This document shows, one piece after another, positions 191 through 32,130 of a stretch of 34,951 nt of DNA; the stretch's first letter is position 1; every line of letters starts with the position of its first letter. Source of the DNA: an uncultured Clostridia bacterium (GTDB lineage: Bacteria; Bacillota; Clostridia; Oscillospirales; Acutalibacteraceae); assembly GCA_946041635.1 (NCBI GenBank), contig CAMGDG010000007.1, positions 1 to 34,951 on the forward strand, given 5' to 3'. The position numbers and the translations under genes are program-made. The notes under the pieces are model-generated. The model was not told the origin of the DNA, did no database searches, and worked only from the letters and a program-made list of their open reading frames with translations.

Positions 191-382
191 TCTGCCTTGC
201 GGCAGAGTGATATTATTGTCCCCGGACAATAGTGTTATTGAATCCTTCGGATTCAGTGTTATTTTATTCGCAACAAACTCGCGAAGCGAATAACACTGTG
301 CGAAGCACAATAAAACTGCGAAGCAATACAACTCGCCGTATGGCGAATAAAACTGGCGTTGTATCCTTACGGGTACAACGCC
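191..382. repeat. Array of short hairpins separated by a conserved 9-nt spacer
   Basis: Spacer AGTGWTATT at 206-214, 231-239, 255-263. Its reverse complement AATAMMACT is at 289-297, 309-317, 325-333, 346-354. Different small hairpins lie between spacers. Confidence 0.75.
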
Positions 383-414: not shown

Positions 415-1851
415 TTAATACGCCTTGCCCCAATAGAGCATTTTTGTTGCCGGCTTGCCGCAGCAAACGCATTTATCGGTAATTTGCTCCTGCTCAAAGG
501 GGATACAGCGTGAGGAAACTCCCGCCTTGTCTTTAAGCGCGTCCTCACACTCACGGTCACCGCACCACATAGCCTTTATAAAGCCGGGCTTATTATCGGC
601 GATGTCGCACAGCTCGTCAAGATTATGAGCCGTAAAGGTCATATTCTCACGGCGTTTAAGTGCGGAATTATAAAGTCCCTGATGAACTGCTTCCAGCAAT
701 TCGGGAATTTTAGTTTCAAGCTCGTCCAGAGATACAAAATACTTCTCTCTTGTATCACGGCGCACAACTACGCACTGGTTTTTCTCAATATCCTTGGGTC
801 CGATTTCCAAACGGAGGGGTACGCCCTTCATTTCATACTCGGCATATTTCCAGCCGGGAGTGTTATCGGTCAAATCTATCTTTGCACGGGCGAATTTTGA
901 AATATTCTCATAAATTTCCTGTGCTTTTTCCTTTACGCCCTCTTTATGAGCGGCAACGGGAATAACAACAACCTGTATGGGAGCGATTTTCGGGGGAAGA
1001 ACAAGTCCGTTATCGTCACCGTGAGTCATAATTATTGCGCCGATAAGGCGTGTAGTGCAGCCCCACGAGGTCTGGAACGGATATTTAAGCTTATTGTCCT
1101 TATCCTGGAACTGAATACCGAAAGCTTTTGCAAAACCGTCGCCGAAATAGTGGCTTGTACCGGACTGCAAGGCTTTACCGTCGTGCATTAAAGCCTCAAT
1201 GGTATATGTATCCTCTGCACCTGCAAAACGCTCTTTTTCGGTTTTAACGCCTTTAACAACGGGCATTGCAAGATAATTTTCGCAGAAATCCGCATACACA
1301 TTCAGCATCTTGATTGTTTCTTCCTGTGCCTCTTCTGCTGTTGCATGGATTGTATGCCCCTCCTGCCAGAGAAATTCTCTTGTGCGCAGGAACGGTCTTG
1401 TAGTTTTTTCCCAACGGACAACAGATACCCATTGATTGTAAAGCTTGGGCAGGTCACGGTAGGAATGAACTATATTTGCATAATGCTCGCAGAAAAGAGT
1501 CTCGGAGGTAGGTCGAACGCAAAGACGCTCCTCAAGCTTTTCGCTTCCGCCGTAAGTTACCCACGCAACCTCGGGAGCAAAGCCCTCAACATGGTCTTTT
1601 TCCTTGTTGAGAAGGCTTTCGGGAATGAACATGGGCATACAAACATTTTCATGCCCCGTTGCCTTAAACATTCCGTCAAGAGTTTTTTGGATGTTTTCCC
1701 AAATAGCATAGCCGTAAGGCCGTATTACCATACAGCCCTTTACGCTTGTGTATTCAACAAGCTCCGCTTTTTTCACCACATCGGTGTACCATTTGGCAAA
1801 ATCCTCATCCATTGAGGTGATTTCCTCAACCATCTTTTTTTGTTCAGCCAT
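415..1851 (-). CDS. proS: Prolyl-tRNA synthetase (archaeal/eukaryotic-like type)
   Basis: 478 aa; class II aaRS sequence with [19 protein letters not shown] and C-terminal Cys-rich [15 protein letters not shown], typical of short ProRS. Confidence 0.95.
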
Positions 1852-24023: not shown

Positions 24024-24245
24024 TGTAGGGGCGGGTCTCTGTGCCCGCCCGATAATTCTACTGTAATTTGACGGCGGGAGCAAGCCCCCGCCCTACCCGG
24101 TTGGAATTGATTTTGCGGAAATCACGCGGGCGATTCGTGAATCGCCCTACAAGCACACCACCTCTCTTGTTCCCCTGAAAGAGAAGATGTCAACGAAGTT
24201 GACAAAGGGGTTATTCTACGGGACGATGAAAGGCATCGTCCCCTA
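24024..24245. repeat. Cluster of intergenic hairpin repeats
   Basis: GTAGGGGCGGGTCTCTGTGCCCGCCC; CGGCGGGAGCAAGCCCCCGCCCTACCC; GGGCGATTCGTGAATCGCCCTAC; GGGACGATGAAAGGCATCGTCCCCTAC. Confidence 0.8.
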
Positions 24246-31994: not shown

Positions 31995-32130
31995 CCTTAA
32001 TTCAGTCGTGTGCCGTGTGGGTCCTGTGCGGCGGTGCGCTGTGAACCATGTCAGGCGGGGAACCGAGCAGCATTAAACGGTATGCGCCGGGCGCCACAGT
32101 CTGCCTGCACGACACATGACTGAGTTAAGG
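31995..32130 (+). ncRNA. ffs: Signal recognition particle RNA (bacterial small/4.5S type)
   Basis: Long terminal stem CCTTAATTCAGTCGTGTG...CACATGACTGAGTTAAGG with the helix 8 region CATGTCAGGCGGGGAACCGAGCAGCA; located directly upstream of dnaX. Confidence 0.92.

Follow-up and report, generated by a model that had tools for sequence, protein, structure and literature searches.

The hairpin array at positions 191 to 382 of the window, that is, of the whole stretch of 34,951 nucleotides analysed here, is a copy of the Gut-1 motif (Rfam RF01706) that falls below the family's threshold. It is probably a MITE-like copy, lacking an ORF, of a small mobile element built on a PF05635/TIGR02436 gene. 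The motif is known, yet unexplained. The reading starts from features that were observed directly: membership in a repeat family, the layout of the array, its dispersal, its absence at the orthologous site, the linkage of such arrays to PF05635, a linker of 7 nt and a period of 7.

Structure of the array in the window

Read on the minus strand, the array comprises eight hairpins with conserved linkers and is directional. An outer hairpin (h0) is followed by four forward hairpins (h1 to h4), a segment designated P1', and three hairpins with inverted linkers (h5 to h7) (Table 1). The array begins about 35 nt past the stop codon of a 478-aa ORF which, from reading of the protein, we take to be proS (prolyl-tRNA synthetase); its orthologues in relatives show 64-92% identity. 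The array lies near the start of its contig, and the genomes compared with it are drafts.

Table 1. Features of the array and its surroundings (positions in the window; sequences read on the minus strand)
Feature	Position	Strand	Sequence	Remark
proS	415..1851	-		478-aa ORF; 3' end adjoins the array, same direction as the array
Outer hairpin h0	355..382	-	GGCGTTGTACCCGTAAGGATACAACGCC	28 nt, larger than the other hairpins
Rfam Gut-1 match	285..355	-		36.3 bits, E 0.0011 over the window
P1 strand	343..352	-	TTTTATTCGC	linker plus 5' arm of h1; exact complement at 262-271
h1	333..346	-	TCGCC-ATAC-GGCGA	stem invariant within the subfamily
Heptamer linker	326..332	-	GTTGTAT	
h2	317..325	-	TGC-TTC-GCA	
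Heptamer linker	310..316	-	GTTTTAT	
h3	297..309	-	TGTGC-TTC-GCACA	8 different stems among 12 loci
Heptamer linker	290..296	-	GTGTTAT	
h4	279..289	-	TCGC-TTC-GCGA	7 stems among 12 loci
P1'	262..271	-	GCGAATAAAA	reverse complement of P1
h5	239..255	-	TGAATCC-GAA-GGATTCA	
Inverted heptamer	232..238	-	ATAACAC	
h6	214..231	-	TATTGTC-CGGG-GACAATA	9 stems among 10 loci
Inverted heptamer	207..213	-	ATATCAC	
h7	191..206	-	TCTGCC-GCAA-GGCAGA	right end of the array

Hairpins of varying sequence were found at the position of h0 in other arrays (L057, L093, L105, L108 and L060). P1' was present in the remaining parsed members of the subfamily too, its presence being a requirement of the parse. A scan for P1/P1' alone was not discriminating and gave chance matches in 12 of 29 control loci. 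The invariance of the h1 stem within the subfamily is expected if P1' binds the h1 stem as well.

A first-pass annotation of this DNA had described about eight mini-hairpins with an invariant 9-nt spacer and different stems, arranged in two converging halves, and had asked whether shuffled sequence would give comparable recurrence of the spacer. The array was not a product of chance. The 35-kb window has nine matches to AGTKNTATT, of which seven are at 206-354 (three on the plus strand and four on the minus strand), against 2.6 matches in total per 35 kb when the window was shuffled. DNA folding of the array stretch gave z-scores of -6.3 and -7.5 against dinucleotide shuffles, and RNA folding gave a z-score of -7.0. 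The short stems of the window were not outstanding against shuffles by hairpin-chain score over the whole window; linker recurrence and folding were therefore used as evidence instead.

The conserved spacer was upheld, but its length was not, as its terminal A and T belong to the neighbouring stems, and hairpins that directly adjoin in the window are separated by exactly 7 unpaired nt at each of the five such sites (5/5). Similarly, the linkers of the second half are indeed inverted, but the array is directional on the minus strand, and the supposed centre of convergence (264-285) is actually P1' plus part of h4. The array had rightly been set apart from a simple tandem repeat and from CRISPR, which has identical unidirectional repeats and unique spacers of constant length, whereas the 7-nt repeat of the window array inverts in the second half and its inserts are palindromic.

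Identity with Gut-1 and turnover of the stems

The window copy matched positions 1-77 of the Gut-1 model end to end, with a score below the RF01706 gathering cut-off (50 bits), and it is therefore not the new repeat class that had been considered at first. The original description of the motif, in 2010, came from metagenomes of the human gut (Weinberg et al. 2010, PMC2864571). Its three hairpins with conserved linkers are shared by the window match. The window genome (a 1.48-Mb draft, 83% complete) holds 12 Gut-1 matches, six of which exceed the cut-off (50.8-69.1 bits), and the over-threshold members in this genome and in its relatives have the architecture of the window array. Several matches of the window genome stand in opposed pairs, because Rfam models one half of the array and the second half is an inversion of the first. 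The Rfam family corresponds to the forward half, whereas the present description adds the inverted second half, P1' and a linked gene.

Gut-1 was present in 35 of 60 relatives, with up to 48 matches per genome, and in 3 of 299 genomes of a phylum-wide sample. A search of relatives for the same arrays, as had been suggested, recovered the layout with different self-complementary stems; it recurs in most of the 29 best Gut-1 loci read in relatives. Most complete copies of the window's linker subfamily have four forward and three reverse hairpins plus P1', and this subfamily also includes arrays beside PF05635 genes (L093, L105, L108, L114 and L170).

The earlier impression that stems vary while self-complementarity and linker are kept was borne out across loci. 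For h3 to h7, 2-15% of arm combinations drawn across loci pair, against 100% within a locus by construction. In a wider set, a perfect stem of at least 4 bp was detected in 65% of the inter-linker segments versus 10.6% of shuffled ones, and a 5-bp stem in 49% versus 2%. Exactly one 20-nt unit separates L165 from L167, orthologous arrays in two close relatives. Modular growth, which had also been proposed, is seen in this gain or loss of one unit between orthologous arrays (G022 versus G023), but not as open-ended growth, the layout being largely fixed (4+3).

Linkage to PF05635/TIGR02436 genes

Some arrays are followed directly by a gene for a PF05635 (TIGR02436) four-helix-bundle protein, 2rld being the one solved relative found by sequence. 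PF05635 was detected in 28 of 32 Gut-1-positive genomes versus 2 of 14 Gut-1-negative ones (p = 3.4e-6); this set of 46 genomes was picked to hold nearly all Gut-1 positives, and related genomes within it are not independent. In the same 46 genomes, no association with Gut-1 was found for RVT_1 (p = 0.75) or for Y1_Tnp (p = 0.76), the latter having no match in the window genome. Mobilisation by a reverse transcriptase and by IS200/IS605 or RAYT transposases was rejected, because RVT_1 and Y1_Tnp, respectively, were missing from several array-rich genomes in addition to showing no association.

A strict scan for converging clusters of exact 6-mers, beside or around the gene, detected them at 46 of 86 PF05635 loci and at 0 of 29 proS control loci. 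With a relaxed scan of the 86 loci, repeats were found within 200 nt upstream at 43 and on both sides of the ORF at 21, over a sizeable background (6 of 29 controls anywhere in 4.4 kb), and no array was detected nearby at about a quarter of the PF05635 loci in the order.

Two layouts were observed, with the ORF either beside a complete array or between its halves (L141, L147, L166 and L169). The two resemble circular permutations of each other. Where the ORF lies beside the array, the last linker often runs directly into a -35/-10 promoter of the gene with a spacing of 17 nt (TTGAAA-17-TATAAT), as was seen at about a dozen loci including L093, L099, L105, L108, L136, L146, L159, L168 and L170. 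PF05635 gave no match in the window genome, an 83%-complete draft; its array copies are therefore ORF-less, and the window copy would be non-autonomous.

Other genes were met in similar positions. A small ORF, presumably glyoxalase-like, is enclosed by two Gut-1 arrays at L031 (G000 contig C6, 440-1260), and other ORFs follow the array at L044 and L052. Arrays may carry genes other than PF05635. A Gut-1-type array together with a PF05635 gene was also present on two human-faecal scaffolds that are phage by their deposit label (MT835815 and MT835590; L222 and L223).

In the open-licence literature, no paper was found that ties PF05635/TIGR02436 to heptamers, hairpin arrays or Gut-1, and the link may be noted elsewhere. 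A figure legend on novel CRISPR-module associations in the FLSHclust survey names '23S rRNA IVP' (PMC10910872); the repeat arrays beside PF05635 genes are a possible reason to recheck that association.

Heptamer arrays in five phyla

Many PF05635 genes of the order are without hairpins and have short tandem repeats on their flanks instead. The same was examined in a set of plasmid PF05635 loci from Cyanobacteriota, Bacteroidota, Spirochaetota, Bacillota and Chloroflexota (n = 18, mostly Nostocales). Inverted 6-mers occurred on both flanks at 18 of 18 loci, with at least three copies on each side at 16 of them (controls 0/290), and a period of 7 was found at 17. An example from Nostoc has the form (AATTCGT)n - PF05635 gene - (ACGAATT)n, with tandem heptamers and no hairpins.

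The linker lengths of Gut-1 peak at 7 in both halves (42/157; control flat, 6%). The side peaks at 5 and 3 are what would result from stems lengthened by one base at either end of the linker. The best reading of Gut-1 is an array of heptamers that self-complementary inserts break up. The simplest joint reading of both kinds of locus is that the heptamer array is the functional unit and that the Gut-1 hairpins are inserts which vanish on a single strand.

On a plasmid of Nostoc sp. UHCC 0870 (L229), the heptamers flanking a PF05635 gene are apparently broken by hairpin-like inserts (GGACTAACGTCC), which suggests an origin of such interruptions outside the gut Clostridia as well.

DNA or RNA

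Gut-1 was rated "certainly" an RNA by its discoverers, with no function given in the part of the report that concerns it (PMC2864571). It could accordingly be a structured small RNA, or a 3' UTR RNA made by upstream read-through, whose PF05635 neighbours are incidental or encode a protein partner. RNAalifold analysis of seven TGATAT-subfamily copies agrees with this, as 14 pairs were changed on both sides, and so does the finding that arrays follow tRNA, tmRNA and protein genes in the same direction. In RNA form, too, some loops and stems would be stable.

The composition of the loops and stems, however, points away from RNA. The loops of the forward half are of the type C(TNY)G (61 versus 3) and those of the reverse half of the type C(RNA)G (51 versus 2), and the units are therefore inverted as DNA modules. 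The second half repeats the loops and linkers of the first as reverse complements, so that one strand is as well made as the other. C(GNA)G and C(GNNA)G loops, both unusually stable in DNA, occur in the 3' half of either strand. Among the tetraloops of the reverse half, GNYA outnumbers GNRA, and UNCG does not belong to the common loops. A discussion of d(GNA) triloops closed by a C-G pair is given in PMC5815330, where the likeness of GNA loops and RNA GNRA loops is stressed. The stems showed no excess of G-U, with five G.T and five A.C mismatches in a small sample, and by this equality neither strand behaves as RNA. In addition, hairpins are entirely lacking from the tandem-heptamer relatives that surround PF05635 genes. 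Taken together, the kinds of loop and the symmetry of the strands speak for a DNA element rather than a non-coding RNA, short of proof given the small samples. The processed RNA that the first-pass annotation had envisaged is disfavoured, and we regard an RNA as an unlikely explanation of Gut-1.

Dispersal of the arrays

On the evidence of the loci compared, the array is a dispersed, lineage-specific insertion. In relatives, 29 orthologous loci were read and the array follows proS in none of them (0/29), and its interpretation as a conserved proS regulator was rejected on this account. In the region between ychF and tRNA-Arg, insertions differ by species and some species have none. Arrays from two different families of the order (L035 and L036) are 98% identical over 158 nt, and another pair (L034 and L036) is 93% identical over 216 nt. 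Outside CAATGATAT...ATATCATTG, similarity among copies of the TGATAT subfamily ends abruptly. A mobile or mobilised element would be expected to show such dispersal; no transposition, excision or junction-level event was seen among the compared loci.

Mobility could also be provided by an ordinary DDE or HUH transposase binding at the linkers of a MITE, with the PF05635 gene as cargo or regulator. The outer ends CAATGATAT and ATATCATTG are inverted repeats, Gut-1 matches are more numerous than PF05635 genes, and a 9-bp direct repeat (TATACTAAA) flanks the array at L103, all of which would suit such a transposase. However, this was the sole candidate target duplication among 20 elements, with nothing consistent at the 19 others; a Y1 transposase, the type covered by the co-occurrence analysis, does not co-occur with Gut-1, and the heptamers track PF05635 in five phyla. 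An ordinary transposase was thus judged improbable.

The array would be immobile if it served as a 3' end or attenuator element, in which the hairpins keep 3' exonucleases off transcripts or control the gene that follows. Arrays often sit after terminators and stop codons, the promoter abuts the last linker, and an alternative pairing of the h1 arm with P1' is possible. The sites described above argue in the other direction, since orthologous positions such as that after proS are not conserved, the ychF-tRNA-Arg insertions differ between species, and near-identical arrays stand at different genes in different families. We consider this role quite unlikely.

Near-perfect palindromes and the gain or loss of one unit would also fit replication errors that generate palindromes in an AT-rich stretch between genes, with the array as their by-product, but this explanation is scarcely credible, because the layout and the subfamily-specific heptamers are conserved across genomes and the arrays are tied to one gene family.

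Proposed organization of the element

The mobile element based on PF05635, which remains the preferred reading, would in its complete form consist of an outer hairpin or terminator, forward heptamers with mini-hairpins, P1', inverted heptamers with mini-hairpins, and one PF05635/TIGR02436 gene. Its ends would be defined by the two converging arrays. In a solved relative, the protein is a pentamer (Lin 2006, cited in PMC4990558). We infer that the PF05635 protein may bind several heptamers on one exposed strand, which would be DNA and not RNA. The self-complementary inserts would fold away on that strand and make the heptamers effectively adjacent, as they literally are in the tandem-heptamer elements of other phyla. 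The protein would serve ORF-less copies in trans, and the promoter by the last linker would permit autoregulation of the PF05635 gene. The copy after proS is probably a passenger that is tolerated because it is placed in the 3' untranslated region.

A broader proposal is put forward tentatively. PF05635 genes across bacteria may be the only gene of undescribed minimal mobile elements with converging 7-nt repeats that are recognised as single-stranded DNA, and the inserts of the gut Clostridia, with their DNA-type C(GNA)G and C(GNNA)G loops, may have been mistaken for a Gut-1 RNA. This would give one explanation for three orphan observations, namely the Gut-1 'RNA', heptanucleotide repeats and a four-helix-bundle family whose function is unknown. 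Should the reading as DNA prove true, the Rfam family would need relabelling, and there would be a single-gene mobile element without a recognisable transposase. The small protein is predicted to bind its own 7-nt repeat, both with and without hairpin inserts.

Comparison with known systems

REP/BIME elements with RAYT transposases are hairpin arrays in two orientations with conserved feet, dispersed intergenically. Gut-1 arrays resemble them in the two orientations of the hairpins, the conserved linkers and the dispersal in intergenic regions. However, REP stems are conserved in sequence, whereas the stems of the present arrays vary freely between loci, and REP/BIME has a Y1 transposase (RAYT), whereas the present arrays are without Y1 association in the 46 genomes. 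The heptanucleotide short tandem repeats (STRR) of cyanobacteria are 7-bp tandem repeats, and repeats of this length here flank PF05635 genes in Nostoc and its relatives. Avd of diversity-generating retroelements is a distant homologue of the PF05635 proteins, 2 of 13 members reaching it at E 0.001.

The closest relation by protein family is to the 23S rRNA IVS protein (PF05635/TIGR02436), as in the Coxiella IVS, which belongs to the same family as the gene of the complete elements (PMC4990558). IVS elements were proposed to be mobile and to carry inverted repeats (PMC4990558). They lie in a 23S rRNA helix, whereas the present elements are intergenic and the window copy is 3' of proS. Heptamer arrays, which are present in these elements, receive no mention in the portions of PMC4990558 on the Coxiella IVS.

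Other repeats and RNAs

The array end is joined directly to a fragment of a different, unrelated intergenic repeat at 153-189 (GTAGGGGCGGG... type), which also occurs at 24051-24087 and has further genomic copies; this fragment was rejected as the right end of the element. Positions 1-168 are occupied by a dispersed repeat with inverted ends (CCCTCTGACGAGGG and CCTCCCTCGTCAGAGGG) and about ten full or partial copies in the genome. In a relative (G014, L185), ends like those of this repeat flank a small ORF between ychF and tRNA-Arg, which resembles a DUF559-type protein, and the 1-168 repeat may be another ORF-less element.

At L030 (G000 contig C20), one Gut-1 copy resembles a recombinant of TGATAT-type and TGAAAT-type halves and adjoins a duplication that takes in part of a tRNA 3' end. 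Inserts of about 200 bp at tRNA 3' ends (L032, 650-860; L030, 1600-1800), which leave a duplicated tRNA 3' end, are a separate kind of element. The window also contains a bacterial small SRP RNA at 32015-32113 (63.9 bits).
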